Below are positions 4,549 to 39,439 of a stretch of DNA of 45,464 nucleotides, one piece after another. The stretch comes from a virus: positions 1-45,464 of IMG/VR virus record IMGVR_UViG_3300025896_000042. One strand, written 5' to 3'. The notes under the pieces were generated by a model that saw only the letters and a list, made by a program, of their open reading frames with translations, did not search any database and was not told the origin of the DNA. The translations under genes and the position numbers were made by a program. Positions within the stretch are counted from its first letter, which is position 1, and every line of letters starts with the position of its first letter.

Positions 4549-5888
4549 TGAAGCTCCCGTTCGGGCTGGAACTGTCGCGCCAGAAGGCCATGACGCCGGT
4601 CCCGAACCAGGGCCGCGGCCTGTGGCGCCGCATCCTCGAGCCGTTCGCTGGCGCCTGGCAGCAGAACGTGGAGGAAACCCGCGGCAACCTGCTGGCGTAC
4701 CCGACCCTGTACGCCTGCCTCAACCGCATCAGCCAGGACATCGGAAAGCTGCCGTTCCGGCTGGTACGCGAGGACGAGAACGGCGTCTGGTCGGTGGACA
4801 AGTCGAACACGGCCTACTGGCCAGTGCTGCGGAAGCCCAACCAGTACCAGACCGCTCAGCAGTTCCGCGAATACTGGGTGCTGTCGAAGCTGATGGACGG
4901 CAACACCTACGCCCTCAAGGGGCGCGACGAGCGGGGCGTCGTGACGCGCCTGTGGATACTTGATCCGGCCAACGTCATGCCGCTCGTATCGACCTCTGGC
5001 GACGTTTACTACCAGCTGCAGTTCTCGGCCGCTGAGAACTTGCTCCCGGAGAGCTACCCGGCAAAAACCATCGTCGTGCCGGCGTCGGAGATCATCCACG
5101 ACCGCCTCAACACCTTCCACCACCAGCTGATCGGCGTGCCTCCCCTCTGCGCGGCATACTGGCCGGCGGTGAAGAACCTCCGAATCCTTCAGGACGCCGC
5201 GAGGTATTTCCAGAACGGCGCCAAGCCCAGCGGTATCCTGACGGCGCCGGCAGGCATCTCTGACGAGGACGCCGAGGCCATCAAGGCGTACTGGAACACC
5301 AACTTCACCGGCGAGAAGGCCGGAAATGTCGGCCTGGTCGGCGCGGACCTGAAATACACCCCGTTCTCTTTCAACGCATCCGACTCGCAGTTGGTCGAGC
5401 AGATGCGGTACTCGGACGAGCAGATCTGCCAGGCGTTCAGCGTCCCGCCCTTCATCATCGGCCGCGGCACGATCCCGGCTGGTCTGAAGGCCGACGACAT
5501 TGCCCTGGTCTACTACCAGTTCGGCCTGCAGTCGCTGATCGAGGCGATGGAGAACCTGCTGGACGAAGGCCTTGGCGTGAAGCACCCGCAGGGCGTCGAG
5601 CTCGACCTCGAGCCGCTGATGCGCATGGATGTCGGCAAGCTGGCGGAGATCGAAACGAAACTGACCAGTGGCGGTGTGAAGACGCCGAACGAGGCGCGGC
5701 TGCGGTTTAACCTGAGCCCGCTTGATGGCGGAGACACGGTCTACATGCAGCAGCAGGACTACCCGCTCGACCAGGTTCGGCTCAACAAGATCGAGCAGGC
5801 ACCTGCCCCAGCTCCGGCGGCGCCCGAGGACGACGGCGACCCCATTCCCGACGACGAAATGGACGAGGCCATCGCCGATGAAGCCTGA
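4548..5888 (+). CDS. Portal protein (HK97 family)
   Basis: This 446-residue protein forms the dodecameric ring at the capsid vertex through which DNA passes and on which the terminase docks. It has the family layout: an N-terminal segment with ETRGNLLAYPTLYACLNRIS (about residues 44-63), a central EIIHDRL and GVPPLCAA region, the LVEQMRYSDEQICQAFSVPP motif and an acidic Pro/Ala-rich C-terminal tail. Length matches the family. The start overlaps the upstream stop and its own C-terminus overlaps the next gene by 11 nt. Confidence 0.93.
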   Translation: MKLPFGLELSRQKAMTPVPNQGRGLWRRILEPFAGAWQQNVEETRGNLLAYPTLYACLNRISQDIGKLPFRLVREDENGVWSVDKSNTAYWPVLRKPNQYQTAQQFREYWVLSKLMDGNTYALKGRDERGVVTRLWILDPANVMPLVSTSGDVYYQLQFSAAENLLPESYPAKTIVVPASEIIHDRLNTFHHQLIGVPPLCAAYWPAVKNLRILQDAARYFQNGAKPSGILTAPAGISDEDAEAIKAYWNTNFTGEKAGNVGLVGADLKYTPFSFNASDSQLVEQMRYSDEQICQAFSVPPFIIGRGTIPAGLKADDIALVYYQFGLQSLIEAMENLLDEGLGVKHPQGVELDLEPLMRMDVGKLAEIETKLTSGGVKTPNEARLRFNLSPLDGGDTVYMQQQDYPLDQVRLNKIEQAPAPAPAAPEDDGDPIPDDEMDEAIADEA

Positions 5889-6735
5889 CGTGCAGAAGGC
5901 CCTGCTTGCGGCGGCCGGGCGCTACATCCGCAAGCTGCTGGGCGAGTTCGAGCCGCGCATCAAGGCGATCGAGGCCCACCATGCTGAGAACGCCGCCCTA
6001 CGGTCGCGCATTGATGCTCTCGAGAAGGCCCTGGCCGAACGGCCGGTGCCCGAGAGGGGCGCTCCGGGCCCGCAGGGCGAGCCCGGCCGCGATGCCGATC
6101 CGGTGCTGGTTTCCGATGTGGTGCGCGAGCTGATCGCGCTGCCTGAGCTTCGGCCGGTACTTGACCTGCTTGCGACCGAGGCCGTCGAGAAGCACCTCGA
6201 GGCCAACCCGCCGCCGGCCGGCAAGGATGGGCGCGACGGTGAACCGGGCGCGCCTGGCAAAGATGGGGAGCGCGGAGCCGACGGTATCGGCCTGGCTGAT
6301 GCACTGATCGACCGCGACGGCGCGCTGGTGCTGACCCTCACCGACGGCCGCACGAAGTCGCTGGGCGTGGTGCTTGGGCGCGACGGCGCCGCCGGCAAGG
6401 ACGGCCGCGATGGCCTCAGCATGGCGGAAGTGGCCCGCGAGTACGACGCGGAGGGGCACGAGGTGGTCGAACGCTGGACGGTCGCCGGCGAGCAGCGCGA
6501 GCTGCGCTACCCGGCCGGTGGCATCCGCCCGGGCGGGTTCTGGCGCGAGGGCATGAAGTGCTTTGCAGCGCAGGCCATCACGCATGACGGCGCGCTCTGG
6601 ATCGCCAAGCGCGACACCGCCGCGCGCCCCTGCCTCGAGAACGCAGAAGACTGGCAGCTCGCCGCCCGCAAGGGCAGGGACGGGCGCGATGGCAAGGACG
6701 GCAAGCCGCCTCCAGGCCCGGTGGTGCTGTCGTGA
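5878..6735 (+). CDS. Collagen-like repeat protein next to portal
   Basis: This 285-residue protein carries several Gly-X-Y blocks, for example GAPGPQGEPGRDA near residue 61, a longer run near 118-140 (GKDGRDGEPGAPGKDG), a short one near 168-178 and one at the C-terminus (GRDGRDGKDGK). The N-terminal about 50 residues are helical, and a folded segment (about 185-265) with FWREGMKCF and HDGALWIAK resembles carbohydrate-binding-type beta modules seen in phage fibres. The start ATG at 5878 overlaps the portal stop. It probably trimerises as a fibrous head or neck decoration. That role is inferred; phage collagen-like proteins are known from fibres and capsid decorations. Confidence 0.75.
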   Translation: MKPDVQKALLAAAGRYIRKLLGEFEPRIKAIEAHHAENAALRSRIDALEKALAERPVPERGAPGPQGEPGRDADPVLVSDVVRELIALPELRPVLDLLATEAVEKHLEANPPPAGKDGRDGEPGAPGKDGERGADGIGLADALIDRDGALVLTLTDGRTKSLGVVLGRDGAAGKDGRDGLSMAEVAREYDAEGHEVVERWTVAGEQRELRYPAGGIRPGGFWREGMKCFAAQAITHDGALWIAKRDTAARPCLENAEDWQLAARKGRDGRDGKDGKPPPGPVVLS

Positions 6736-7130
6736 CCGAACTCGTTACCAAGGCCGAGGCCTACGCGCAGCTGCGCATTGACGACACCGCGCACGACGCC
6801 TGGCTGGCCGTCTGGATCCCGGCCGTGTCGCAGGCCGTGCTGAACTGGCTCAAGGACGAGTGGCGGGCCTACGATCCGGAGCTCGACGCCGACGGCAATC
6901 CGGTGCTGGATTCGGCCGGCGACGAGATCCCGCTGGTCGACACCAGCGGCAACATGACGCCGCGCTGGTCGGTGAAGGCCGCGGTCCTGCTCGAGCTGGC
7001 CAGCCAGTTCCGGTTCCGCGACGGCTCCGGCAAGGACAACGTGGTGCCGGCCGACGCTGGCCACGGTTACGTCCTGAACAAGGCGTCGACCGCGCTTCTG
7101 GCGCCCTTGCGCAAGCCGACGGTGCGCTGA
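6732..7130 (+). CDS. Head-tail connector (gp6-like)
   Basis: This 132-residue protein has the pattern of HK97 gp6-like connectors: TKAEAYAQLRID near the N-terminus, a helical segment with AVSQAVLNWLKDEW, and a C-terminal helix KAAVLLELASQFRFRDG. These proteins form a ring below the portal. The GTG start at 6732 overlaps the upstream stop (GTGA), and the stop overlaps the next gene's ATG at 7130. Confidence 0.85.
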   Translation: MTELVTKAEAYAQLRIDDTAHDAWLAVWIPAVSQAVLNWLKDEWRAYDPELDADGNPVLDSAGDEIPLVDTSGNMTPRWSVKAAVLLELASQFRFRDGSGKDNVVPADAGHGYVLNKASTALLAPLRKPTVR

Positions 7131-7465
7131 TGAGCCTCGACGCCGGCCTGCTGCGGCATCGGCTGCAGTTCCAGTCGCTGCAGAGCTATTTGGATACGGC
7201 CGGCGACACCGTCGAGGCCTGGGTCACTGATTTCGAGTGCTGGGGCTCAGTGGAGCCGCTGTCGGCGCGCGAGTTCGTCGCAAGCCAGGCAGTGCAGTCG
7301 CAGGTAACGGCACGCGTGGTTGTTCGCTATCGCAACGACGTTTCGCCGACCCAGCGCATCGTATTCCGGGGCAGGTTCTACAACATTGCCGGCATGCTGC
7401 CTGACAAAGACAGCGGTTTGGAGTACCTGACCATTCCCGTGTCCGAAGGCGTGAACCCGGGCTGA
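7130..7465 (+). CDS. Head closure / head-tail joining protein
   Basis: This 111-residue protein matches the phage head-tail joining family (SPP1 gp16-like): MSLDAGLLRHRLQFQS, then a beta-barrel pattern with WGSVEPLSAREF, VVVRYRNDVSPTQRIVFRGRFYNI and a terminal EYLTIPVSEG. Length is typical. It acts as a stopper joining the connector to the tail. It is chained by TGATG to the preceding gene and by TGATG at 7463-7467 to the sugar-transfer cassette. Confidence 0.88.
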   Translation: MSLDAGLLRHRLQFQSLQSYLDTAGDTVEAWVTDFECWGSVEPLSAREFVASQAVQSQVTARVVVRYRNDVSPTQRIVFRGRFYNIAGMLPDKDSGLEYLTIPVSEGVNPG

Positions 7466-7965
7466 TGCTGTTCGCGGTGATTGCCACCGGGCCGTCGTTG
7501 ACGCAGGCCCAGGTGGATGCTGTGCGCCATCTCCGGGTGGTAGTGGTTTCGGACGCCTACAAGCTGGCGCCGTGGGCTGATGCGCTGGTGAGCGCGGACA
7601 AGGCCTGGTGGAAGTTTCACAACCCAGACTTCGCCGGCCGGAGATTTTCGGCTCTGCCAGAGACCGGGATGGATTTGGAGGTAATGGATGGCATCCCGAT
7701 GGGATCGAACTCCGGGCTTTGGGCGATCCACCAGGCGGTGAAGCTTGGCGCCACGAGGATCATTCTGCTGGGCTTTGACCTCGGCGGCACGCACTTCTTC
7801 GGCGAGCATCCGGCGCCGCTGAAGAACACCAAGCCGGAGCGGTTCGAGGTCTTCAAGACGCAGTTTGAGCGATACCGGCCAAAAGGCGTCCAGATCACCA
7901 ACTGCACGCCGGGGTCGGCGCTGACGTGCTTCCCTCGGATGGACCTGCACGAGGCGCTGAAATGA
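7465..7965 (+). CDS. DUF115/MptE-like Rossmann protein
   Basis: This 166-residue protein is the first gene of a six-gene cassette placed inside the head-tail joining genes. It has an N-terminal TGPSLT motif, then VVVVSDAYKL and LVSADKAWW, and a central NSGLWAIHQAVKLGATRIILLGFDL. This GPS...SAD...NSG...LGFD pattern belongs to a Rossmann-like superfamily that includes DUF115 proteins and some sialyltransferase-like enzymes. Phage copies are often labelled norphogenetic protein. The substrate is unknown. The start overlaps the head-closure stop. A sugar-phosphate or nucleotide-sugar related role is inferred from the family and the neighbouring glycosyltransferase-like genes. Confidence 0.7.
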   Translation: MLFAVIATGPSLTQAQVDAVRHLRVVVVSDAYKLAPWADALVSADKAWWKFHNPDFAGRRFSALPETGMDLEVMDGIPMGSNSGLWAIHQAVKLGATRIILLGFDLGGTHFFGEHPAPLKNTKPERFEVFKTQFERYRPKGVQITNCTPGSALTCFPRMDLHEALK

Positions 7966-8675
7966 GGGCCTGGCTTAACCTGCGGTACGTCACTGGGGCG
8001 CGTGCAGATGCGTTCCGCGCCGGGCTGGAGGTCTGCGGGTTCGAAGTGGCGCCCCAACTGACCACGGAGCCTGGCCCGCACGACTTGCTGGTGACGTGGA
8101 ACCGCATCGGCCACGGCGACCATTGCGCTCGCCAGTTTGCCGCGCAGGGCCGGCCGGTGCTGGTGGCCGAGAACGCGGCCTGGGGCAATGAGTTCGCCGA
8201 CTCGTGCTGGTACACGCTGGCCCGGGACTGGCACAACACGGCCGGGTGCTTCCCGGTCGGGGGCCCGGAGCGATGGGACGACCTCGGTGTCGAGCTGGCG
8301 CCCTGGCGCACCGGCGGCGAGGTGGTAATCCTGCCGCAGCGCGGCATCGGGCCGCCCGGCGTGGCCATGCCGCGGGGCTGGGGGCAGGGGATCAAGGGCC
8401 GGATGCGCCCGCACCCCGGGCAGCACCCCTGCGTTCCGCTCGAGCAGGATCTGGCGCGCGCCGGCAAGGTGGTGACCTGGGGCAGCGGCGCCGCGGTTAA
8501 GGCGCTGGTCTGGGGCATTCCGGTCGAGTCGCACATGCCGGGCTGGATCGCCGAGCAGGACAACACCGACGCCGGCCGGCTGGCAATGTTCCGCCGGCTG
8601 GCCTGGGCGCAGTGGCGCATGGAGGAGATCGCGTCAGGGGAGGCCTTCCAATGGCTGTTACGGTCGCGTGCCTGA
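7962..8675 (+). CDS. Glycosyltransferase-like protein A
   Basis: This 237-residue protein begins with ATG inside an ATGA overlap with the preceding gene. It is recognisably related to the next gene: both have a WGPER/GGPER segment followed by ...LG..L.PWR..G, then a C-terminal block with AV.AL..GIPV and an ending W.QW...EI.SGEA. The S/A-AV-AL-GIPV block resembles the nucleotide-sugar binding region of capsule-polysaccharide (KpsS/KpsC-like) glycosyltransferases, where a Ser-rich loop precedes an A-GIPV motif. A sugar-transfer role is inferred; no reaction can be assigned. Confidence 0.6.
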   Translation: MRAWLNLRYVTGARADAFRAGLEVCGFEVAPQLTTEPGPHDLLVTWNRIGHGDHCARQFAAQGRPVLVAENAAWGNEFADSCWYTLARDWHNTAGCFPVGGPERWDDLGVELAPWRTGGEVVILPQRGIGPPGVAMPRGWGQGIKGRMRPHPGQHPCVPLEQDLARAGKVVTWGSGAAVKALVWGIPVESHMPGWIAEQDNTDAGRLAMFRRLAWAQWRMEEIASGEAFQWLLRSRA

Positions 8676-9448
8676 CTAGCCCGACGCAGAGGCGATACCG
8701 GCTTATCGCGGAGGCCATGGCCGCCGGCATCAATCGCTGCGGCGACCGGGCCAGCCTGGTGTCGGTATATGCGCCGCACCAAGTGGCCGACGTCGGGGTG
8801 ATGTACGGCTGGAAGCGGCACCAGCAGCTGCAGCGGTACGCGCGCTTCGTGTACGCCGATCTGGGCTACTGGCAGCGCGACAACTACTACCGGCTGGCGG
8901 TTGGCGGCTGGGGACCAGAGCGTTACGTCTGCGCTGGCCTTCCGGCCAGCCGGTTCGAGGCGCTGGGCCTGCAGCTGAAACCGTGGCGCGAGCATGGCAA
9001 CGAGATCATCGTCGCCGGCGCTACGGCCAAGGCGGCCGGCGAGCACGGCCTGGGGTACATGGAATGGGAGCGCCGGGCTGTGGCGCGGCTTCGGGAGTGC
9101 GGACGGAAGGTTATCTACCGACCGAAGCCGAACGACCGGCTGGCCCAGCCCATCAACGGCGCCGGCTACGACACGCGCCCGATCAGCGAGGCGCTGGCCA
9201 ACGCCTGGGCCTGGGTGACGCACCACAGCAACTCCGCGGTGGACGCGCTGCTGGCCGGCATCCCGGTGCACTGCGAGATCGGTGCCGCCGCCGCGCTGAG
9301 CGTGCCGATGGACCAGATCGGGGAGGCCCCACTGATTGAGGGCCGAGAGCAGTTTCTGGCCGACGTGGCCTGGCTGCAGTGGACATTGGATGAGATGCGC
9401 TCCGGCGAGGCCTGGGCGCACCTGAAGGATCGGGGGCTGGTGTGCTGA
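8651..9448 (+). CDS. Glycosyltransferase-like protein B (paralogue of A)
   Basis: This 265-residue protein has an ATG at 8651 with a GGGGAGG ribosome site, inside the end of the preceding gene (25-nt overlap). Motifs are YRPKPND, then VTHHSNSAVDALLAGIPVH, which is the clearest glycosyltransferase-type element here (a Ser-containing loop followed by A-GIPV, as in capsule polysaccharide transferases), and a C-terminal WLQWTLDEMRSGEAW. The central and C-terminal parts match gene A, so the two arose by duplication. It may act on surface sugars of the host or on virion proteins. Confidence 0.62.
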   Translation: MAVTVACLTSPTQRRYRLIAEAMAAGINRCGDRASLVSVYAPHQVADVGVMYGWKRHQQLQRYARFVYADLGYWQRDNYYRLAVGGWGPERYVCAGLPASRFEALGLQLKPWREHGNEIIVAGATAKAAGEHGLGYMEWERRAVARLRECGRKVIYRPKPNDRLAQPINGAGYDTRPISEALANAWAWVTHHSNSAVDALLAGIPVHCEIGAAAALSVPMDQIGEAPLIEGREQFLADVAWLQWTLDEMRSGEAWAHLKDRGLVC

Positions 9449-10140
9449 CATTCGACGCGGTGACGACGTTTGCCGATCGGCACTGGGAGGACCATGCCCG
9501 GCGCTGCGTCGAGACCTTCGACCGGCACTGGGTGGACATTCGGCTTCGGCAGTACCGCGACCAGCAGCTGGAGGACCTGTCGGACTGGCTGAGCGAGTTC
9601 AAGCAGCGGCACCGGCACCGGCCGACGCATAACTACCGCTTTGACGCGGTGCGATTCGCGCACAAGGTCGCGGCGATCGAGCTGGCTTTCCGGCTGGGCG
9701 AGGGCGACGTGCTTGTCTGGATCGACGCGGACTGCGTGACCCATGCGCCTGTCCGCGCCGACTGGCTGGCCGGTCTTCTGGGTGACGCGGACTTCGGCTA
9801 CCTGCGCCGGGCGAAGAAGTACCCGGAGTGCGGATTCATGCTGATCCGGCGAAGCGAGGCCGGCGCGCAGCTGATCCGGGACCTGGTCTGGCTGTACCGG
9901 ACCGACGCCCTTTTCGAGATGGAGGAATGGCACGACAGCTGGGCCATCGAGCAGGTTCGGCGCCGCATCGGCATCGCCTGCGCGTCGCTGTCCGGCGACG
10001 CGGAAGCCACCGGACATCCGCTGGTGAACGGTCCCCTGGGCGCTTGCCTGGACCACCTGAAGGGAAAACGGAAGGCGGCGGGGAAGTCCCTGCCGTCCGA
10101 CATCAAGACGCCACGGCGAGAGGCTTATTGGCATGGCTAA
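9442..10140 (+). CDS. GT-A-like glycosyltransferase with DxD motif
   Basis: This 232-residue protein has VLVWIDADCVTH at about residues 91-102. The D-A-D is the metal and nucleotide-sugar binding DxD of GT-A fold glycosyltransferases. Further features are GYLRRAKKYPECGFMLIRRS and a conserved Trp/Asp segment EEWHDSWAIEQ, as expected for an acceptor-side loop. The GTG start at 9442 lies 7 nt inside the preceding gene. It likely transfers a sugar from a nucleotide donor; donor and acceptor are unknown. Confidence 0.68.
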   Translation: MLTFDAVTTFADRHWEDHARRCVETFDRHWVDIRLRQYRDQQLEDLSDWLSEFKQRHRHRPTHNYRFDAVRFAHKVAAIELAFRLGEGDVLVWIDADCVTHAPVRADWLAGLLGDADFGYLRRAKKYPECGFMLIRRSEAGAQLIRDLVWLYRTDALFEMEEWHDSWAIEQVRRRIGIACASLSGDAEATGHPLVNGPLGACLDHLKGKRKAAGKSLPSDIKTPRREAYWHG

Positions 10141-10711
10141 GCGTTACGACCAGATGTTCCCGCTGATCGACCAGGTGAAGCCGCGACGAATCATTGAGAT
10201 CGGCGTGCACCGCGGCATCCGTGCGGCGAAGCTGTGCGCCCGCGCGCTCGAGCACCGGGGTTTGGTTCGCTACACCGGCTTCGACGTGTTCGACACCATG
10301 AATGCAGAGTTCCAGGAGCAGGCGCTGAACGGCAAGGGCGCCCCTAACGAGCAGCAGGCGAAGGCCCGGCTGCTTAGCCTGGGCGGCGGCCTGAAGTTCG
10401 AGTTCGCCATCGGAGACACCCGCAAGACCCTGCACGGGACCGAGCAGATGGTCGACTTCGCATTCATCGACGGCGACCACCGCGTGGATGCCATCGCCGG
10501 GGACTACGCGGCTGTCGCCGGCGCGGACTGCGTGGTGTTCGACGACTACTACCGGCCAGACGAGAACGGCCATCTTCCGGACCTGGCGCTGTATGGCGCC
10601 AATGCCACGGTGGATGCACTGGCCGCGGCCGGGCGTCGTGTCGAGATCCTCCCGGCTGGCGACCGCTGCAAGCATGGCGGCTACAGCCACCTGGCGGTGG
10701 TGTGGAAATGA
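10133..10711 (+). CDS. Class I SAM-dependent methyltransferase
   Basis: This 192-residue protein has a SAM-binding motif I, RIIEIGVHRGIRAAKL (about residues 19-34), a second-strand acidic residue in YTGFDVFDTM, and FAFIDGDHRVDAI followed by DCVVFDDYYRP, the pattern of the Methyltransf_24 group that often acts on sugars or small molecules. It starts 8 nt inside the preceding gene. In this cassette a sugar O-methyltransferase is the simplest reading, but this is inference from context. Confidence 0.75.
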   Translation: MAKRYDQMFPLIDQVKPRRIIEIGVHRGIRAAKLCARALEHRGLVRYTGFDVFDTMNAEFQEQALNGKGAPNEQQAKARLLSLGGGLKFEFAIGDTRKTLHGTEQMVDFAFIDGDHRVDAIAGDYAAVAGADCVVFDDYYRPDENGHLPDLALYGANATVDALAAAGRRVEILPAGDRCKHGGYSHLAVVWK

Positions 10712-11394
10712 AGGTCTACATCGGCTACGACCCGCGCGAGGAGGCCGCCTACGACGTGGCCGTGGCCAGCCTGCGGCGAGTGACCCCCGGGGCGGATGCG
10801 ACCCCGCTCAAGGCCGAGCGCCTGGCCGCGTGGGGCCTGCTGCGCCGCCTGGTAGACCGCCGCGGCGGGCTGTACGACCTGCCCAGCAATGCGCCGTGCG
10901 CGACCGAGTTCGCCGCCAGCCGCTTCCTGGTGCCGCACCTCGCGCAGACCGGCTGGGCATTGTTCACAGACTGCGACATGGTCTTCCTGTCGGACGTGCG
11001 CGAGATGCTCGAGCAGGCGGACCCGTCGAAGGCGGTGATGGTGGTCAAGCACCCGCCGCTCGAGGACGAGGGCACGAAGATGGACGGCGCGCTGCAGGTG
11101 CGCTACCCGCGCAAGAACTGGAGCAGCGTGATCCTCTGGAACTGCGACCACCCGGCGAACCAGCGGCTCAGCCTGCAGGACGTCAACGAGCGGCCCGGGC
11201 GCGACCTGCACCGCTTCTACTGGCTGGCCGACTCCGAGATCGGGTCGCTGACCCCGGACTGGAACTGGCTGGTCGGCGTGCAGCCCAAGCCGCTGTTCCC
11301 GAAGATCGCCCACTTCACCCTGGGCGGCCCGTGGTTTCCCGGCTGGACGGGCGCCGAGCACGACGACCTATGGCTGGAGGCGGCCCGTGGCTGA
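10708..11394 (+). CDS. Glycosyltransferase, GT-A type with DxD
   Basis: This 228-residue protein opens with MKVYIGYDPREE, a signature of a widespread group of small GT-A glycosyltransferases in phages and bacteria. It carries the DxD motif in LFTDCDMVFLSD (about residues 89-100) and conserved aromatic segments RYPRKNWSSVILWNC and IAHFTLGGPWFPGW near the C-terminus, which match the acceptor region of the group. The start ATG at 10708 is within an ATGA overlap with the methyltransferase; a GTG six bases earlier (10702) is an alternative. It is the last cassette member, overlapping the gp10-like tail-completion gene by 8 nt. Confidence 0.75.
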   Translation: MKVYIGYDPREEAAYDVAVASLRRVTPGADATPLKAERLAAWGLLRRLVDRRGGLYDLPSNAPCATEFAASRFLVPHLAQTGWALFTDCDMVFLSDVREMLEQADPSKAVMVVKHPPLEDEGTKMDGALQVRYPRKNWSSVILWNCDHPANQRLSLQDVNERPGRDLHRFYWLADSEIGSLTPDWNWLVGVQPKPLFPKIAHFTLGGPWFPGWTGAEHDDLWLEAARG

Positions 11395-11878
11395 GATCAA
11401 GGTCGAGGGCCTGGACAAGGTCGTGGCCGAAATGCGCAAGGTGACGGTGCAGATGCGCGGCAAGATCGCGCGCTCGGCTGTGCGCAAGGGCGCCAACGTC
11501 GTGCGCGATGCCGCGAAGCAAGCCTGGGCGCGCGTCGACCGCGAGGAGACCCCGAACAACATCGCCGAGAACGTGGCGGTGCAGTTCGCCGGGCGCACCT
11601 TCCGGCGCACCGGCGACATCATGTTCCGGGTCGGCATCCGCGGTGGCGCGAAGCAGTACGCCAACACGAAGGAGAACCGGCGCGCGCGGCGCGTCGGCAA
11701 GACCTACAAGACCGGCGGCTCGACGTTCTACTGGCGCTTCTACGAGCTCGGCACGAAGCACCAGCCGGCGCGGCCGGTGATGCAGCCGGCGCTGTTCAAC
11801 AACGGCCAGGCGGCCTTTAACGCGATGGTGAACGAGATGAACCGCCAGTTCGCCAAGCTGGGCAAGGGGCCGGGCTGA
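11387..11878 (+). CDS. HK97 gp10-like neck/tail-completion protein
   Basis: This 163-residue protein begins with IKVEGLDKVVAEMRKV, the diagnostic start of the HK97 gp10 family, continues with RKGANVVRDAAKQAW and ends with FYWRFYELGTKHQPARPVMQPAL, also characteristic. It belongs to the head-tail interface and normally directly follows the head-closure gene. Here the six-gene sugar cassette separates them. The GTG start overlaps the cassette's last gene by 8 nt. Confidence 0.9.
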   Translation: MAEIKVEGLDKVVAEMRKVTVQMRGKIARSAVRKGANVVRDAAKQAWARVDREETPNNIAENVAVQFAGRTFRRTGDIMFRVGIRGGAKQYANTKENRRARRVGKTYKTGGSTFYWRFYELGTKHQPARPVMQPALFNNGQAAFNAMVNEMNRQFAKLGKGPG

Positions 11879-12240
11879 TGTTCTCGCCGGCTTTCGAGAT
11901 CGCCGCCGCCTCGGCCGCAGTGAAGTCGGTGCTGGGCACTCCGCCCCGCTTCTACGGGTTCGGCGATGCGCAGCAGGACGGGACGAAGCCCTACGCCGTG
12001 CACCAGGTGATCGCCGGCAGCCCGGAGAACTACCTCAACCAGGTGCCCGACCAGGACACGCTGGTGGTGCAGGTGGACGCCTACGCCGGCACGCCGCAGG
12101 AAGCGAAGGCCATCGTGCGCGCGCTGGTCGGAGCCTTCGAGCCTGTGGCCCATGTCACGAGCTGGAACGGCGAATTCCGAGACCCCGAGACCCGCCTCTG
12201 GCGGATCAGTTTCACGGTCGAGTTCAAAGCCGACCGATAA
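11878..12240 (+). CDS. Tail terminator / completion protein (DUF3168)
   Basis: This 120-residue protein follows gp10 as usual. It shows the DUF3168 pattern: an N-terminal helix, a PYAVHQVIAGSPENYL strand, VVQVDAYAGTPQEAKAIVRAL and a final WRISFTVEF strand. Proteins of this family cap the tail tube at the head-proximal end. The start overlaps the previous stop by one base. A strong intrinsic terminator follows 27 nt after the stop. Confidence 0.87.
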   Translation: MFSPAFEIAAASAAVKSVLGTPPRFYGFGDAQQDGTKPYAVHQVIAGSPENYLNQVPDQDTLVVQVDAYAGTPQEAKAIVRALVGAFEPVAHVTSWNGEFRDPETRLWRISFTVEFKADR

Positions 12241-12267
12241 CCCCGGCATCCGCCGGACCCCGCAGAC

Positions 12268-12290
12268 CCCGCCGACCGGCGGGTTTTTTT
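12268..12290 (+). terminator. Rho-independent terminator
   Basis: A perfect 6-bp stem (CCCGCC at 12268-12273, GGCGGG at 12278-12283) with a 4-nt loop is followed by seven T residues at 12284-12290. It separates the head/neck operon from the tail tube gene. Confidence 0.88.
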
Positions 12291-12318
12291 ATGCCCGCAG
12301 ACATAGGAGGCGGCAGCA

Positions 12319-12789
12319 ATGGCGAAGAAAACCCAGGGCACCCAGCTCTACTTCATCGACCCGGCGGACGGCAGCGTGCAGGAAGTGGACTGCACCCTGA
12401 ACATCGACGGCATCGACACCACGAACGAACAGCGCGAAACGACCTGCCTGGCCGACCTCGCGCGCACCTACGAGGCCGGCCTGGCCACCCCGGGCCAGGC
12501 GACCTTCGGCATCAACGTCGACCCGACGGTGGCCAGCCACCTGCGCCTGCACCAGCTCAAGGTCGCCGGCACCACCCTGCAGTTCGCAGTGGGCTGGTCG
12601 GACGGCCTGAACATCGCGCCGACGGCGGACACCTCCGGCAACTTCATCCTGCCGGCCACGCGCTCGTGGATCAGCTACGAAGGCTACATCGCCAACTTCC
12701 CGTTCTCGTTCCAGCAGAACGCGAACGTGCAGTCGACCCTGGCCGTGCAGATCAGCGGCGAGCCGGTGCTGGCGGCGAAGTCGGCGTAA
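12319..12789 (+). CDS. Major tail tube protein
   Basis: This 156-residue protein would polymerise into the tail tube. A strong AGGAGG at 12305-12310 precedes the ATG. The sequence is beta-rich: TQLYFIDPADGS at the start, then TTCLADLARTYEAGLATPGQATF (a typical T-C-x-G/D-L...G block of tail tube proteins) and WISYEGYIANFPFSFQQNA near the end. It stands alone between a terminator and the chaperone gene, as expected for a highly expressed structural protein. No other candidate tube gene is present. Confidence 0.85.
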   Translation: MAKKTQGTQLYFIDPADGSVQEVDCTLNIDGIDTTNEQRETTCLADLARTYEAGLATPGQATFGINVDPTVASHLRLHQLKVAGTTLQFAVGWSDGLNIAPTADTSGNFILPATRSWISYEGYIANFPFSFQQNANVQSTLAVQISGEPVLAAKSA

Positions 12790-12859
12790 CCCCTGCGGGG
12801 CGGGCCTGGGGCGTGTCGCCGCACGTTCCCGCCGCCCCTCCATTCCCGGCGAGGAAAGT

Positions 12860-13339
12860 ATGGACCTGAACAAACTGCAGGCCATGGGCGCGCTCGTGCC
12901 CACCACCCTGTTTAAGCGCGAGATCGAAGTCACCTTCCACCCGCTCAAGCCCGAGTCGGAGTGGGAATCCCCGGACGTCCCCGAGCGCCAGGCCGCGCTG
13001 GTGACCGAGACCATGACGGTCTTCATCCGCAAGCGCAACTCGGCCGACATGCTCGACGTGAGCTTCGCCGACGGCGCCGACCGTTCGCTGCTGAGCATCC
13101 TGCGCTGCGTGGTGCAGACGGACGGCAAGCCGGTGTTCGAAGACATCGAGCAGGTCCGCCGGCTGGAGCCGTGGCTGTCCATCCCGCTGATGCGCGCGGT
13201 GACGGAGGTCAACCAGTACGACGCAAAAAAATCAGCGCCGAGGACGAGTTCTGGTGCTCGCTTGCCCTCGCGCTCGGCGGCCGGAGCATCGCGGAGTGGC
13301 AGCAAGCGATCTCCGAGGAAGAAAGGTCGCTCTGGCTGA
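12860..13339 (+). CDS. Tail assembly chaperone, short form (G-like)
   Basis: This 159-residue zero-frame product is the counterpart of lambda gpG, which binds the tape measure protein during tail assembly. Residues 1-124 form a plausible folded domain (VTFHPLKPESEWESPDVPERQ, FIRKRNSADMLDVSF). After the slippery A7 (13225-13231) the zero frame adds a 35-residue basic Ser/Arg/Lys-rich tail. The upstream GAGGAAAG at 12851-12858 supports the ATG. Its position between tube and tape measure is diagnostic. Confidence 0.85.
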   Translation: MDLNKLQAMGALVPTTLFKREIEVTFHPLKPESEWESPDVPERQAALVTETMTVFIRKRNSADMLDVSFADGADRSLLSILRCVVQTDGKPVFEDIEQVRRLEPWLSIPLMRAVTEVNQYDAKKSAPRTSSGARLPSRSAAGASRSGSKRSPRKKGRSG

Positions 13340-13566
13340 GCTACATCGCCAAGCACGGCCCGATCAACCCGCTGCGGCGGATGGATGGCGACATCGCCGA
13401 GCTCGCCACGTTGGTGGCCGGGATCAGCGGCTCGAAGAAGGCCAACGGCCAGCCGTTCCGACTCACTGACTTCTGCAACTGGACGCCGCCACCTCCCGAG
13501 GAGGAGGCGACGCTCGAGGAGGCGTTCCTGATGTTCCAGGCAATCGCGGGGCCCAAGCGTGGCTAG
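12860..13566 (+). CDS. Tail assembly chaperone, frameshifted form (GT-like)
   Basis: A -1 shift at 13225-13231 joins residues 1-124 of the short form to a second domain read from base 13231 onward, giving about 235 residues in total. The downstream part (AEDEFWCSLALALGG..IAEWQQAISEEERSLWLSYIAKHGPINPLRRMD) is a typical T-domain with a Trp-rich helix and ends with LMFQAIAGPKRG. No independent start with a good ribosome site exists for it. In lambda the GT form recruits the tail tube protein to the tape measure; the same is expected here. The stop overlaps the tape measure start by 8 nt. Confidence 0.82.
13225..13279 (+). promoter_or_regulatory. -1 frameshift site (A7) with downstream hairpin
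   Basis: Zero-frame codons GCA AAA AAA place the heptamer A AAA AAA at 13225-13231 in the correct phase for tandem -1 slippage. Four bases later CGCCGAG (13236-13242) can pair with CTCGGCG (13273-13279), and an inner CGAG/CTCG pair (13245-13248 with 13257-13260) fits inside the loop, giving a plausible stimulatory structure. Confidence 0.82.
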
Positions 13567-15592
13567 CCGGTCGCTCGGCACGCTCACGGTGGATTTGGTC
13601 GCCAAGATCGGCGGCTTCACCAAGGGCATGACCCAGGCCGAACGCGAGGCCGACAAAGGCGCGAAGGCGGTCGAGGCGCGCATGCGCAAGCTCGCCAAGG
13701 GCATCGACGCGGCCTTCCAGGTCGCGGCCGCTGCGGTCGTGGCGGCCGTTGGCGTCATGGCGGTAGGCGTGAACAACGCCATCAACCGCATGGACGACAT
13801 CGGGAAGTCGGCCCAGAAGGTCGGCATCTCGGCCGAGTCCTTCTCAAAGCTGGCTTATGCTGCGCAGCTGGCCGACGTGGACATCGGGCAGCTCGAAGGC
13901 GGCCTGGCCAAGCTGGCCAAGTCGCAGGACGCGGCCGCCCAGGGCGCGAAGGAGCAGCTCGACATCTTCCGCGCGCTGGGCGTCGAGTTCCAGAACGCCG
14001 ACGGCACGCTGCGCAAGACCGACGAGGTCTTCGCTGACCTCGCCGACCGCTTCCAGGGCCTGCCCGACGGTGCGAACAAGACCGCCGCGGCGATGGCGCT
14101 GCTCGGCCGCTCCGGCGCCCAGATGATCCCGCTGCTCAACGGCGGCTCGGACGGGCTGCGCGAGATGGGCGACGAGCTCGAGCGGTTCGGCGGTGTCGTC
14201 GGCCCCGAGGCGGCGCGCCAGGCCGAAACCTACAACGACAACCTGACCCGGCTGCGCGTGGCCGCCGATGGACTGTGGCAGTCGCTGGCCATGCAGCTGC
14301 TGCCTGACCTGATCCATCTCACTGAGGAAATGCTCGACGCCTCGAAGAAGGGCGGCGATCTGCGGGACGTGGTGGACGCTGCGGCCACGTTCGTTCGCGG
14401 GCTTGGGATGGCCGCGCAGCTGGCAGTGGATGGCGTGCAGGCGCTCACGTATTCGGCCATCGGCCTTTACAACGTGATGCAGGGTATCTCGCGCCTGAGC
14501 CCGGGCTCGGTGCGCAACTTCTTCGACGGCCGCACCGCTGGCGACGACTTCCGGGATGCCGGAGTTGCATTCGGCATGGCCGGCTCGGCCTTCGACGAGA
14601 CCTCGGCGAGCCTGTACGGCGACCCGAACGCCAAGCCGAAGTTCGACTGGGCCGCGGCGGAGGGCGAATCGCAGGCCCTGGCCGAACAGGCGAAGCGCGC
14701 GCTGGCGGCGGCCGAAGCTGAGAAGGCGCTTGCCAAGGCGCTGGCCGAAGCCCGCACCGAGCAGGAGCGCGCCGCGGCTGCGGCCAAGACCAAGGCCGAA
14801 GCCGACCGCGAGGCGGCGAAGGCCGCCCGCGAAGCCGAGGCCGAAGCCAAGCGAATCGCCGCCGAGAAGTTCGAAGAGCGGATGGACCTCGTGAAGATGG
14901 CCGCGCAGGAGCGCAAGGACCGCGAGGACGAGAAGAAGCGCCTGAAGGACTTCATCTCCGACCTGGAGTTCGAGGTCGAGCTGATGAAGATGGGCAACGT
15001 CGAGCGCGAGAAGGCAATTGCCCTGCGCTATGCCAACGTCGACGCCGCCAGCGCCGAGGGCATCGCCATCGGGGAAGCCATCGAGGCGCAGATGGCTCTC
15101 GGCGAGCAGATCTCGGCCATGGACGAGTTCCGCATGGCCTTCGAAGACAACGTCGCCTCTGTGCTCGACGGCTCGAAGTCCATCAAGGACGCCTTCACCG
15201 ACCTGGCTGACTCGGTGATCGCCCAGATCGCCAGGATGATCGCCAAGCAGTGGACCGCGCAGCTGTTCGGCGACATGGGGACCACTGGCAGCGGCAGCGC
15301 CGGCGGCGGCTGGATGAGTGCCCTGTTCAGTGCATTCGGCGGCCCGCGCGCTGCTGGCGGACCGATGTATCCGGGCAAGGCCTACCTTGTCGGCGAGGAA
15401 GGCCCCGAGCTCGTGCGCCCGATGGGCGCCGGCACCGTCGTCCCAGCGAAAGAAACCGCATCCCTGCTCGGCGGCCGAATGCGAGGCGGCGACACCTTCA
15501 TTTTCCAGGGGGCGACGAGCGGGCGTTCCGTTGATCGCCTGCGCATGGAGCGCACCCGCGCTGATCGGCGCGCTGAAGCGGAGTTCGGCTGA
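13559..15592 (+). CDS. Tape measure protein
   Basis: This 677-residue protein sets tail length and is later ejected. The N-terminus LGTLTVDLVAKIGGFTKGMTQAEREADK is typical of the family. A hydrophobic Ala/Val-rich segment lies at about residues 56-72, a long Ala/Glu/Lys coiled coil at about 370-460, and the C-terminus carries GGPMYPGKAYLVGEEGPELVRP, a frequent tape-measure ending motif. If the usual about 0.15 nm per residue holds, the tail would be near 100 nm. The GTG start at 13559 overlaps the chaperone stop by 8 nt. Confidence 0.92.
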   Translation: MASRSLGTLTVDLVAKIGGFTKGMTQAEREADKGAKAVEARMRKLAKGIDAAFQVAAAAVVAAVGVMAVGVNNAINRMDDIGKSAQKVGISAESFSKLAYAAQLADVDIGQLEGGLAKLAKSQDAAAQGAKEQLDIFRALGVEFQNADGTLRKTDEVFADLADRFQGLPDGANKTAAAMALLGRSGAQMIPLLNGGSDGLREMGDELERFGGVVGPEAARQAETYNDNLTRLRVAADGLWQSLAMQLLPDLIHLTEEMLDASKKGGDLRDVVDAAATFVRGLGMAAQLAVDGVQALTYSAIGLYNVMQGISRLSPGSVRNFFDGRTAGDDFRDAGVAFGMAGSAFDETSASLYGDPNAKPKFDWAAAEGESQALAEQAKRALAAAEAEKALAKALAEARTEQERAAAAAKTKAEADREAAKAAREAEAEAKRIAAEKFEERMDLVKMAAQERKDREDEKKRLKDFISDLEFEVELMKMGNVEREKAIALRYANVDAASAEGIAIGEAIEAQMALGEQISAMDEFRMAFEDNVASVLDGSKSIKDAFTDLADSVIAQIARMIAKQWTAQLFGDMGTTGSGSAGGGWMSALFSAFGGPRAAGGPMYPGKAYLVGEEGPELVRPMGAGTVVPAKETASLLGGRMRGGDTFIFQGATSGRSVDRLRMERTRADRRAEAEFG

Positions 15593-20929: not shown

Positions 20930-21643
20930 ATGGCCGCGATCGCCAAGGCCCTGTTGCCGTTCGAAGTCTGGCCCAGCCAGATCGACGCGGCTGCGGACCC
21001 CGCCAACAACAACGCCCTGCGCGCCGAGGTGATCACCCGCCCGGCCATCAGCTTCATCGCGGCCCTTCCGGGGGCCCCCGACAATGGCGACCTGCACGTG
21101 CTGAGCGCCGCCATCGGCGACGAGGTGGCGGGGACGCTGGCGTTCTACACGGCCGGCGCCTGGACGTACTGGGTGCCGGTGATCGGCATGCTCAAGCGCA
21201 TCGGCACCGACTACTACACCTACGACCCGGACAGCTCCGACGAGTGGCAGGTCTATGCGCCTGGCGGTGGCGCCGTGGATTCCGTGAACGGGCGAACCGG
21301 AGCCGTAGTCCTTACGGCGGCCGACACGCCGGCCACGATCATCACGGAAACCACCACGGCCCGCGATCTCGGGGCCTCCGACATGGGCTGTTACATCCGC
21401 TTCACCAACTCGTCGGCCAAGGCCCTGACGGTGCGCGACAACGCCGATGTTGCCATTGCCAACGAGCTAGAGGTGCACGGCCGGAACGTCGGCGCCGGCG
21501 CCCTGACCATCACCGAGGACACGGCGGTGACCGTGAACGCTCCAGCCGGCGGCACGCTGGTGATCCCGCAGGGCGGCACCTTCACGCTCAAGAAGGTAGC
21601 CACAGACGAGTGGGATCTGTTCGGCGTGACGGTGGCCGCATGA
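20930..21643 (+). CDS. Tail fibre / appendage protein (DUF2793-like)
   Basis: This 237-residue protein follows the tip protein directly. Residues about 40-110 contain ISFIAALPGAPDNGDLHVL and YDPDSSDEWQVYAPGG, resembling the DUF2793 module that reads out surface parameters in GTA-type fibres. Next comes the common fibre linker VDSVNGRTGAVVLTAAD (about 117-133) and a C-terminal beta-rich domain with TVNAPAGGTLVIPQGG and ATDEWDLFG that looks like a trimeric head or capping domain. It is probably part of the host-recognition apparatus. Confidence 0.72.
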   Translation: MAAIAKALLPFEVWPSQIDAAADPANNNALRAEVITRPAISFIAALPGAPDNGDLHVLSAAIGDEVAGTLAFYTAGAWTYWVPVIGMLKRIGTDYYTYDPDSSDEWQVYAPGGGAVDSVNGRTGAVVLTAADTPATIITETTTARDLGASDMGCYIRFTNSSAKALTVRDNADVAIANELEVHGRNVGAGALTITEDTAVTVNAPAGGTLVIPQGGTFTLKKVATDEWDLFGVTVAA

Positions 21644-23019
21644 TCGCTGGCATTGTCGCGGGCGCGGCCGTCGTGTCCGGCCCGGTTTACGTCTTCGCCA
21701 CGCTCAATCCCAGCGACAACGGCGGGCTCACGCTGTCGGCTGGAAACCTGAAGGCCACGCGGCCTTCTGGGAGCGCCTGGCTCACCGTGCGCTCGACCAT
21801 CGGCCGGAACTCCGGTAAGTGGTACTTCGAGATCACGAACGACGCCAACGGCTCCACCGATGGTGATGCCATGTGGGGCTTCAACGAACCGACGGATTCG
21901 CTCACGACCTATCCCGGAAACTCGACGCTTGGGCCGAACAGCATGGGCTGGGAGCCCAACCTCACGCCGAACTCGGCGAAGTTTCAGGACGGCTCGCTGG
22001 GGGCGGTGTCCGGCTACGGCAGGGTCGCGGCTGGGCAGTACGCGCGCTTCGCCATCGACTTCGACGCCGGCAAGCTGTGGGTGCGCAACAGCTCGGCCAG
22101 CGGGTGGGCCGGCGGCGGTGATCCGGAGGCCGGCACCAGCCCGACCTTTACCTTCACCGCCAACACCTTCCTGCACGTCGCTGTTTCTGGATACTCCGGG
22201 CCGCAGGCGGCTACCTGCAATTTCGGCGAATCGGCCTTCTCCGGCACCGTGCCGTCCGGGTTCAACTCCGGTTTCTACGGCGCGCCGAATATCGGTGCCT
22301 TCACCTACGACAGCCGTTTCACCACGGCCGAGAGTGCGAACGCGCAGGGCGTGGCCACCGACGGCACGCACCTCTGGTATGCCAGCTCCGGCACGCTCTA
22401 CAAATACACCACGGCCGGCTCGCTGGTGACCTCGCGCTCTGTGGCCAGCGACGACCCGACCGACAAGAACCAGATCAACGGGCTGTTCATCAAGGACGGC
22501 GTGCTCTACGCCTCGGCCGCGAAGTTCTCCGGCGGTGTCGGCACCTCGTGGATCGTGGAGTACGACCCGGACACGCTGGCCTACATCGACCACCACGCCA
22601 TCACCGGGGACTGGTTCTCCGAGGGGCTGGCGTGGAAGGACGGCGCCTGGTGGCTGGTGTTCCATGCCAACAAGGTCGTGGCGAAGGTGGACCCGAGCAG
22701 CTGGGCGGTGCTCGACACCTACTCGATGTCCTTCCCGATCACCGGCAGCAGCGGCGGCTACGGCGCCGGCACCGGCTACGACGGCATCGCCTGGGTCGGC
22801 GACTACCTGCTCTGCAACGTTCACGAAATCTACGACCAGAACGTGCTCGACCTCTACTACTGGAACGGCTCCGGCTTCGAGGCCATCAAGCGTTACAGCC
22901 ACCCGACGAGCATGGCCACGCAGGGCCTCGCCGCTGACCCGACCGACCCCGGCGTGTTCTGGTTCGCCGAGCGCAACTACAGCGGCACTGATTCCATCGC
23001 CAAGGTGCTGCTCGCCTGA
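21640..23019 (+). CDS. Receptor-binding-type protein with SPRY and propeller-like domains
   Basis: This 459-residue protein starts within an ATGA overlap. A hydrophobic N-terminus (MIAGIVAGAAVVSG) is followed by a SPRY/concanavalin-like domain, about residues 22-200 (SGKWYFEITND, MWGFNEP, GQYARFAIDFDAGKLWVRN, PEAGTSPTFTF, FLHVAVSGYSG). The C-terminal half (about 225-459) has blades of a beta-propeller (GVATDGTHLWYAS, GLFIKDGVLYAS, GLAWKDGAWWLV, GIAWVGDYLLC, GLAADPTDPGVFWF). SPRY domains bind proteins or glycans, so a cell-surface ligand is plausible. It is most likely a virion surface protein, though it could be a moron expressed from the lysogen. Confidence 0.68.
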   Translation: MIAGIVAGAAVVSGPVYVFATLNPSDNGGLTLSAGNLKATRPSGSAWLTVRSTIGRNSGKWYFEITNDANGSTDGDAMWGFNEPTDSLTTYPGNSTLGPNSMGWEPNLTPNSAKFQDGSLGAVSGYGRVAAGQYARFAIDFDAGKLWVRNSSASGWAGGGDPEAGTSPTFTFTANTFLHVAVSGYSGPQAATCNFGESAFSGTVPSGFNSGFYGAPNIGAFTYDSRFTTAESANAQGVATDGTHLWYASSGTLYKYTTAGSLVTSRSVASDDPTDKNQINGLFIKDGVLYASAAKFSGGVGTSWIVEYDPDTLAYIDHHAITGDWFSEGLAWKDGAWWLVFHANKVVAKVDPSSWAVLDTYSMSFPITGSSGGYGAGTGYDGIAWVGDYLLCNVHEIYDQNVLDLYYWNGSGFEAIKRYSHPTSMATQGLAADPTDPGVFWFAERNYSGTDSIAKVLLA

Positions 23020-25365: not shown

Positions 25366-25953
25366 ATGGGCCTTTACAAGCGGTTTGAGGACTCACTGGG
25401 CGAAATCGCGCTGGTAGCGCACGTTAGGACTTACACGATGTACCAGCGGGCCGGCGGCCTATGGTACGTCAACTTCCGGCATGAGGGTCGGCAGTACCGA
25501 CTCTCCACCAGGCTGACCGACTACGAAAAAGCCAAGGCGCTGGTCGAGTCACACCGAGGGAATCGGGTCGCTGGCGAGCCCGCCACGGTGAACGAGCAGC
25601 ACCTGTACCGCATGATCGAACGGGCGCGGTACAAGATGCGGAAGAAGGGCATCCCGATGAGTCTCGGCGTCAGCGACCTTCGGGAGATCGTCGCGCGATG
25701 CAAGGGGTACTGCGAGGTCAGCGGGCGCATCCTGGAGGACACCGGGCCTTTCCGCCCGTCGCTCGACCGCATCGTCCCGAAGCTGGGCTACGTGCCCGGC
25801 AACGTCCGAATCGTCTGCCTGGTGACGAACACGGCGATGCTGCACTACGGCGAGGCCGCCTTCGCCGAGATCGCTATCGCTTACTGCCGGCGGATCGGGC
25901 TGCTGGCGGAGCCTGCGGAAGGTCCCGGCCCCGGTCCATCCAGCCATCCATAG
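25366..25953 (+). CDS. HNH-type protein with integrase-like N-terminus
   Basis: This 195-residue protein lies between attP and the convergent integrase gene. Residues 1-60 (MGLYKRFED, MYQRAGGLWYVNFRHEGRQYRLSTRL) resemble the arm-DNA-binding domain of phage integrases and the N-terminus of this phage's own integrase (ATLYKRG..YYLNWREDGVQYRRSL). The C-terminal part (CKGYCEVSG, FRPSLDRIVPKLGYVPGNVRIVCLVTNTA) matches a small HNH-nuclease-related family with the SLDRI...GY..NV pattern. No Shine-Dalgarno sequence precedes the ATG; an in-frame GTG at 25333 would overlap the promoter. The 3' end overlaps the integrase 3' end by 80 nt tail-to-tail. Confidence 0.7.
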   Translation: MGLYKRFEDSLGEIALVAHVRTYTMYQRAGGLWYVNFRHEGRQYRLSTRLTDYEKAKALVESHRGNRVAGEPATVNEQHLYRMIERARYKMRKKGIPMSLGVSDLREIVARCKGYCEVSGRILEDTGPFRPSLDRIVPKLGYVPGNVRIVCLVTNTAMLHYGEAAFAEIAIAYCRRIGLLAEPAEGPGPGPSSHP

Positions 25954-26887
25954 AGGCCACGGCAGCCCGCCCGAAGTCAGGGGCGTGGTGGGCGTATCGC
26001 TCGGTAACCGTGATCGAGCTGTGGCCGGCCAGGCGCTTGACCTCGTGCAAGGTCACCCCCGACTGCACCAGCGCCGTGCAGAAGGTGTGCCGCAGCCAGT
26101 GAAGGGAGCCGGGCAATCCGGCAGCCCTGGCGTCCTTCCTGAACCAGTCGCCCAGCGTGTCCGGGTGGCAGTCCACCAGCCTGTCCTCGCCCAGCGAGGG
26201 GAGCGCGTCTACCGCCTGCCGATTCAGCGGCACGGCCCGCCACTTCCCCGATTTCGTCCGCCCCTCGGGCACGCTCTCGATCAGCAGCAGGCCGCCCTGC
26301 ACGTCCTGCCGGCGCGCCTTGGCCATTTCCCCGCGCCTGATCCCCGTGGCCACCATGAACGCCCACAGCGCGCCCCTGGGCGTCGTGTAGAGGGAATCCA
26401 GCTGCCGGGGGCGGTAGTAGTCCGGGGCCCGGCTGGTCAGCGGCTTCGGGATGTGGGTGCCTTCCATGGGCGACCTGGCCAGCAGGCGCTGCGCCACGGC
26501 CCTTCGGAAGGCGGCCCGGGCTAGCTTGAGGGCCTTTTCGGCGGTGGCGGGGGCGCCGTAGCCGGCGGCCCAGACCTCGAACGCGGACGCCGGCATGGAC
26601 TCGGCGGCGAAGTGGCCTAAGTGGGCCCGCAGGGGCTTGAGGGCGCTCAGGGACCGCCGGTAGGTGCTGGGCCGGGCGCTGGCGTACCAGCGCAGGTAGT
26701 CGGCCAGGATGGCGTCCACGGTGACGCCGCGGGTGGGCGTCAGGAGGCCGTGGAGCTCCGCTTCTTTCTCGGCGCGTATTTTCTCAGCCGCTTGGCGGTC
26801 AACCTGGCCGAGGCTGCGTCGGTACTGAACCCCGTCTTCCCGCCAGTTGAGGTAGTAGCTGGGGCCGCGCTTGTAGAGGGTCGCCAT
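25874..26887 (-). CDS. int: Tyrosine-type integrase
   Basis: This 337-residue site-specific recombinase catalyses integration and excision between attP and attB. The N-terminal arm-binding domain (residues 1-50) is followed by a SAM-like core-binding domain (about 53-140) and the catalytic domain. The catalytic set is visible: Arg184 in ATGIRRGE, Lys212 in RTKSGKW, His263-x-x-Arg266 in HWLRHTF, His289 in LAGHSS and the nucleophile Tyr298 in TERYAH. The start ATG at 26887 begins MATLYKRG, the usual family start; there is no clear ribosome site, and the gene overlaps the excisionase-like frame by 148 nt. Confidence 0.95.
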   Translation of the reverse strand: MATLYKRGPSYYLNWREDGVQYRRSLGQVDRQAAEKIRAEKEAELHGLLTPTRGVTVDAILADYLRWYASARPSTYRRSLSALKPLRAHLGHFAAESMPASAFEVWAAGYGAPATAEKALKLARAAFRRAVAQRLLARSPMEGTHIPKPLTSRAPDYYRPRQLDSLYTTPRGALWAFMVATGIRRGEMAKARRQDVQGGLLLIESVPEGRTKSGKWRAVPLNRQAVDALPSLGEDRLVDCHPDTLGDWFRKDARAAGLPGSLHWLRHTFCTALVQSGVTLHEVKRLAGHSSITVTERYAHHAPDFGRAAVASMDGWMDRGRDLPQAPPAARSAGSKR

Positions 26888-39356: not shown

Positions 39357-39439
39357 CTTTCTGTTCGTCGTGTCCATGGCGCCCATTCTCTGGCCCAGCA
39401 GTGGGAATCAGGGGGAGCGCGCCGTCCCGGAGGTTCCCG

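Follow-up and report, generated by a model that had tools for sequence, protein, structure and literature searches.

Six overlapping genes (here g1 to g6) fill the space between the head closure gene Hc1 and the gp10-like gene in the late operon of a virus, and this gap is a hotspot at which kits of sugar-transfer genes seem to be gained, lost and exchanged. The virus is IMG/VR record IMGVR_UViG_3300025896_000042, a stretch of 45,464 bases (referred to below as the window) with an HK97-type late operon. Judging by fold or family ties, three of the six proteins point to sugars activated by cytidine monophosphate (CMP) and of acidic nature, two further ones look like transferases of nucleoside diphosphate (NDP) sugars and one is a predicted methyltransferase. 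The block may therefore encode a late, translationally coupled set of cytosolic enzymes for the synthesis of a short methylated glycan, which may be acidic and would most probably be attached to a virion protein. We give about even chances to this reading.

A hotspot between Hc1 and gp10

The portal protein of the window served as a cassette-independent bait in IMG/VR, and 77 loci were obtained. Among the 56 portal-sampled relatives in which the site was classifiable, 46 have sugar genes following Hc1, whereas 10 are empty, with gp10 directly next. The comparative search proposed in the initial annotation thus found phages of both kinds. Given the proportion of occupied sites, its premise of usually contiguous neck genes fails in this lineage. 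A wider set, extended by two named phages and by loci retrieved through g4 or g6, has 53 occupied and 10 empty sites. Stenotrophomonas phage SOVA965, in which the flanks are intact, and E. coli phage JLK-2012 are named phages with an empty site.

The empty sites are clean. Between one occupied locus (L101) and one empty locus (L060) the DNA matches at 79% as far as Hc1 extends and again, at 75%, from gp10 onward, the gap measuring 1,714 nucleotides (nt) in the former against 9 nt in the latter. A second such contrast with intact flanks is provided by the pair L046 and L041.

Recognised contents of the site are nearly always genes for glycosyltransferases (GT), methyltransferases (MT) or 2-oxoglutarate (2OG) oxygenases, and this, together with presence and absence at the same site in relatives, bears out the earlier view of a sugar and methyl transfer cassette inserted as a unit. 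The leading gene is of g1 type in 41 of the 43 occupied sites having both flanks readable, and a gene of this type is the sole cassette gene in L068 and L109. Other fillings are g1-MT-GT2, g1-phrog_6804-MT (named the PAJU2 type after Pseudomonas phage PAJU2) and g1-MT followed by a glycosyltransferase of family F15; an alternative six-gene filling has a Glyco_trans_1-like gene and a Methyltransf_11 gene in place of g4 and g5. A 2OG-Fe(II) oxygenase is added to the cassettes of L094 (PF13640 7.9e-19), L015 and L129, a bacterial contig from a gammaproteobacterial metagenome-assembled genome (MAG). The exact g1 to g6 order is complete in L077, L120, L123, L124, L126 and L127, and partial in five further contigs. 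Since the full order recurs and homologues of g1, g2, g3 and g6 also cluster in Caulobacter jumbo phages, the cassette is beyond a chance assembly.

These could also be accessory genes without common function that gather in a permissive gap between neck genes. The contents are indeed highly variable, the site can be empty and the homologues in coliphage P1 are dispensable (PMC10695390), but the narrow range of recognised contents, the leading position of the g1-type gene, the retention of the six-gene order across divergent contigs and the movement of the same module to unrelated phages make this explanation improbable.

Three cassette carriers, L017, L018 and L019 (IMG/VR 3300026078_000172, 3300005563_000129 and 3300005548_000485), have late genes crossed by in-frame TAG; the tape measure frame of L019 (1,576 codons) contains 19. 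Some of the TAG codons align with Gln. These are probably amber-recoded phages.

The six proteins

The initial description of six overlapping genes with overlaps on both sides was confirmed by open reading frames (ORFs), domains and overlaps (Table 1). Successive overlaps, from Hc1/g1 through g6/gp10, are 1, 4, 25, 7, 8, 4 and 8 nt, with ATGA junctions at g1/g2 and g5/g6. The guanine-cytosine content of the cassette is about 64-71%, the same as in the remaining window, so that composition gives no foreign signature. A transmembrane segment is unlikely in any of the six proteins (maximum 19-residue hydropathy 0.8-1.6), and no gene for a flippase, a polymerase or a lipid carrier was recognised within the block. 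Searching with the cassette at the nucleotide level brought up no close relative among phages, a PADLOC scan for defence genes gave no match, and NCBIfam offered no useful name for any of g1 to g6.

Table 1. Genes of the cassette and its immediate surroundings in the window.
Feature	Position	Strand	Evidence
Head-tail adaptor Ad1 (left context)	6732..7130	+	phrog_40 1.5e-8
Head closure Hc1, left flank of site	7130..7465	+	PF05521 5.7e-27; phrog_25 4.3e-32
g1, GT42/MptE-like, putative sialyltransferase-type protein	7465..7965	+	phrog_4603 7.5e-36; CstII weak, E 0.044; homologues in PAJU2, D3, P1
g2, predicted retaining-Kdo-transferase-fold GT-B protein, RXHP, without nucleophile Asp	7962..8675	+	AlphaFold model, structural matches, motif check
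g3, diverged g2 paralogue, RXKP in place of RXHP	8651..9448	+	blastp g2-g3 1.5e-9; alignment
g4, DxD glycosyltransferase-like protein	9442..10140	+	invariant DAD at 95-97; weak Glycos_transf_2 E 0.072
g5, SAM-dependent methyltransferase (Methyltransf_24)	10133..10711	+	PF13578 9.3e-9; E(I/V)G and IDGDH motifs conserved
g6, predicted GT8-fold glycosyltransferase, DCD and HFT motifs	10708..11394	+	phrog_28018 5.9e-49; model pLDDT 89.4; LgtC Z 16.6
gp10-like/tail completion protein, right flank of site	11387..11878	+	PF04883 1.3e-5; phrog_5 6.8e-18
Tail terminator (right context)	11878..12240	+	PF11367 7.3e-13; phrog_78 2.2e-14

The first gene had been called DUF115-like, and g1 does show a weak match to the MptE-like (DUF115) family (8.7e-4, under the Pfam cut-off); the stronger match is that of residues 6-165 to phrog_4603, 'alpha-2,3-sialyltransferase', over its full length. 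With a profile of 33 relatives the best non-phage match was Campylobacter CstII, itself weak and limited to one 39-residue stretch. A weak resemblance of g1 to the GT42 sialyltransferases is suggested by these comparisons.

Proteins g2 and g3, for which Pfam, PHROG and NCBIfam gave no convincing match, are paralogues, as first supposed. The AlphaFold model of g2 has a mean predicted local distance difference test score (pLDDT) of 93.5, and its top 15 structural matches are all to the KpsC/WbbB/KrkA group of 3-deoxy-D-manno-oct-2-ulosonic acid (Kdo) transferases (Z 9.1-12.0 over 206-224 residues), the next, unrelated match dropping to Z 6.6. Independently, the sequence profile of g2 puts KpsC first (E 0.019). 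Two motifs define the retaining Kdo transferases: (K/R)XHP, for the nucleotide, and QXXXD, in which the Asp is the covalent nucleophile (PMC12887879; PMC10148158). The former is RPHP in g2 (residues 149-152); among 22 g2-type rows HP is present in all and K/R is absent in three. In the latter, Q is kept in 20 of these 22 rows and Asp in none, while the g3-type rows lack both. Most relatives of g3, and g3 itself, have RXKP or similar instead of (K/R)XHP, HP being kept in one row of 10 (L106). Both proteins thus seem to carry a modified GT-B Kdo-transferase fold, with a CMP-binding signature also predicted in g2.

The fold of g2 and its (K/R)XHP CMP-binding motif are shared with KpsC, WbbB and KrkA, of families GT107, GT99 and GT140 (PMC12887879). 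Compared with these enzymes, g2 and g3 are shorter and lack the nucleophile Asp, and they are not filed under any of the three families. They may found a new one, of nucleophile-less KpsC-fold enzymes moving acidic CMP-sugars to virion proteins. The Hc1/gp10 gap would then be a locus reserved for virion glycans, with rapid exchange of its contents, in many temperate siphophages, much like the sugar loci that determine serotype in bacteria; we regard this larger proposal as unlikely. Loss of the nucleophile in KpsC-fold enzymes would also be relevant to work on glycosyltransferase mechanism.

Two DxD glycosyltransferases had been predicted. An invariant DxD is present in both g4 and g6, and g6 has a predicted GT8 fold, but the fold of g4 was left unmatched. 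In g4, the DAD is invariant in 13 relatives. The g6 model resembles LgtC over about 200 residues, with further structural matches to GlyE, WbbM and glycogenin, and D88 and D90 of the DxD motif and H202 and T204 of the C-terminal HxT are invariant in 18 rows. The expected S-adenosylmethionine (SAM) methyltransferase was recovered as g5, whose Methyltransf_24 match scores 36.6 bits against a gathering cut-off of 26.3.

Proposed function and alternatives

The gene content, the predicted folds of g2 and g6, the hotspot behaviour and the clean empty sites are matters of observation; donors, reaction order, acceptor and benefit we infer. As g1 is nearly always present, and sometimes alone, it would place the first sugar on the acceptor. 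Acidic sugars drawn from the host CMP-Kdo or CMP-nonulosonate pool would be attached by g2 and g3, and neutral sugars from NDP-sugars by g6 (GT8) and g4, and g5 would methylate the glycan. Assembly would be stepwise and cytosolic, using host nucleotide sugars and soluble enzymes, during particle production, and the swapping of kits at the Hc1/gp10 site would diversify the particle surface.

A virion protein is favoured as acceptor because the genes stand late, among neck genes, are coupled through their overlaps and are not accompanied by any recognisable gene for a membrane protein, flippase or polymerase. In a phage with an integrase and a helix-turn-helix (HTH) repressor-like gene, lysogenic-conversion genes would be expected elsewhere than in the late operon. 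The first suggestion, that virion proteins are acted on during assembly, is plausible, and conservation of the same module in unrelated phages (the Caulobacter jumbo phages and pelagiphage Mosig) supports the proposed virion glycan.

Several results weigh against it. KpsC, WbbB, LgtC and WbbM, the nearest relatives of solved structure, have lipid-linked polysaccharide or lipooligosaccharide (LOS) as substrate, not protein. For g1, the tie to GT42 is a weak match (E 0.044) over about 39 residues, and g4 is without a fold assignment, a PDB profile search having given no match. A CRISPR interference survey classes P1 pmgO, pmgP and pmgQ, which are related to the cassette genes, as non-essential and cites a knockout survey for the same verdict (PMC10695390), and 24 of 29 P1 single-gene knockouts had no plaquing or antirestriction defect (PMC9024508). 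In laboratory E. coli, P1 lacking any single one of pmgO, pmgP and pmgQ plaques normally (PMC10695390; PMC9024508). An acceptor was also sought by covariation with the cassette, among the collagen-like protein and the neck and tail genes, and none was found. For the collagen-like protein, phylogenetically independent pairs gave about one informative contrast, which leaves its candidacy unsupported; nor was the cassette seen to be inherited together with any one neck or tail gene, the gp10, terminator and tail-protein trees giving 4 changes each, Hc1 4 and portal 3.

The collagen-like Gly-X-Y protein lies between portal and Ad1 (5722-6735). At its start the ORF overlaps the portal gene, which makes a later true start probable, and its repeat content varies widely in relatives. 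Gly-X-Y repeats are absent in all 10 empty loci of the tree set, as a raw association.

A serious rival is that, late in infection, the cassette alters a host surface glycan (lipopolysaccharide core, LOS or capsule linker), for example so that progeny avoid sticking to debris or infected cells. Action on the host envelope has to be taken seriously, since lipid-linked glycans are the substrates of the solved relatives of g2 (KpsC, WbbB, KrkA) and g6 (LgtC, WbbM), in reactions that are likewise cytosolic and need no phage flippase; bacterial chromosomal g6 homologues, moreover, lie near genes for GT9, tetratricopeptide-repeat GT-like and hexapeptide transferase proteins. A late-operon position leaves little time for envelope remodelling, however, the genes lie among head and neck genes in phages D3, PAJU2, Psp6 and P1, and none of g1 to g6 has a likely membrane-anchoring segment. 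On balance we consider this explanation somewhat unlikely.

Modification of phage DNA (a sugar on a hypermodified base) or of a small-molecule signal as anti-defence is very improbable. Phage glycosyltransferases acting on DNA bases are established for T4-type phages, and the window encodes three DNA methyltransferases (29779-31407, 39401-40201 and 43555-44571; one C5-cytosine and two N4/N6). Against this, no base hydroxymethylase or hydroxylase was recognised among the Pfam-scanned ORFs, which are part of the window's ORFs, the genes stand within the structural and not the replication block, PADLOC gave no match, and antirestriction activity was unchanged in P1 single-gene knockouts (PMC9024508).

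Should the cassettes decorate virions as proposed, many phage lineages would have exchangeable surface glycans affecting adsorption, antibody recognition and host range, and a function would be available for dozens of late genes labelled hypothetical or 'morphogenetic', P1 pmgO, pmgP and pmgQ included.

Other features of the window

The phage is temperate, with an integrase (25874-26992) and the HTH repressor-like gene (38559-38912). At the end of the tail genes, the product of 21640-23019 has a Glu_cyclase_2-like match (1.8e-6) and is possibly a receptor-binding tail component. A long low-complexity repeat tract occupies 36235-36708, with Ala-Thr, Arg-Ser and Gly-Tyr runs alternating by frame.

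Related modules in phages and bacteria

Contrary to the first suggestion of an undescribed system, the arrangement is neither isolated nor wholly undescribed, since PAJU2, D3, P1/P7 and Caulobacter phages carry annotated relatives; being already present in the named phage PAJU2, it is not new. No description of the hotspot or of the function of the PAJU2 cassette was found in the open-access full-text literature. As far as the searches show, what appears new is the role of the gap as a place of exchange that some relatives have cleanly empty, the modelled Kdo-transferase fold with its missing nucleophile, and the link of the block to the P1 pmg genes.

PAJU2 gp10-gp12 (NC_011373) occupy the identical site, between Hc1 and a gp10-like gene. 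A g1 homologue (35% identity) comes first and a methyltransferase last; defined by a leading g1-family gene and a methyltransferase placed between Hc1 and gp10, the PAJU2 kind of cassette also embraces the window. There are three genes against six, however, with no g2, g3, g4 or g6, and the middle gene is phrog_6804. In Psp6, the PAJU2 genes are placed between capsid and Ad1. Pseudomonas phage D3 (NC_002484) has an orf11-orf13 block with a methyltransferase at the Hc1/gp10 site, in which Kdo-transferase-like and GT8 genes were not found, whereas its g1 homologue (orf7) lies among the head genes, upstream of Ad1 and outside this block. The family of D3 orf12 and PAJU2 gp11 seems, by eye, to have a GT9-like GxGD start; PDB profile searches with it and with family F4 gave nothing useful.

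A mini-version of the cassette is pmgO-pmgP-ppp-pmgQ of coliphage P1, to which P7 hdmB-hdmD are related. PmgO belongs to the g1 family and PmgP weakly so, and PmgQ is a glycosyltransferase related to cassette family F15. The module differs in including a protein phosphatase, in adjoining pmgR in a myophage and in having no g2, g3 or g6. In P1 (L214, 4932-7490), the protein phosphatase gene is flanked by pmgO, pmgP and pmgQ, whose annotation is putatively morphogenetic but whose products resemble enzymes of sugar transfer. None of PmgO, PmgP and PmgQ is mentioned by name in the main text of the paper on the P1 virion proteome.

Caulobacter jumbo phages (CcrColossus gp126-gp131, CcrSC gp516-gp511) have homologues of g1, g2, g3 and g6 with this order preserved, and a methyltransferase as well. 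Their module lies between tail genes and endolysin in genomes of about 280-317 kb; homologues of g4 and g5 were not found by blastp, and CcrColossus adds an annotated GT9 gene. Mosig groups g4, g6 and two g3-type genes.

Prophage-like copies were seen in bacterial contigs from the gammaproteobacterial MAG (L129), a Hydrogenedentota MAG (L132) and Mesorhizobium jarvisii (L151), and chromosomal g6 homologues in bacterial contigs are mostly without other cassette genes. In M. jarvisii, the sugar genes (8510-14690) stand in a prophage-like block between capsid and portal genes, and the Kdo-transferase-like match has one in-frame TGA. An archaeal Candidatus Methanoperedens MAG (L167, 701-9699) has four Kdo-transferase-like genes, a g4-like gene, a methyltransferase gene and a g6-like gene in a row.

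The P1 and PAJU2 versions open the virion-glycan idea to laboratory testing. Freeman et al., in 2023, reportedly found virion proteins of mycobacteriophages to be glycosylated (cited in PMC12691614), which, in different phages, would be a proof of principle for glycans on phage virion proteins.

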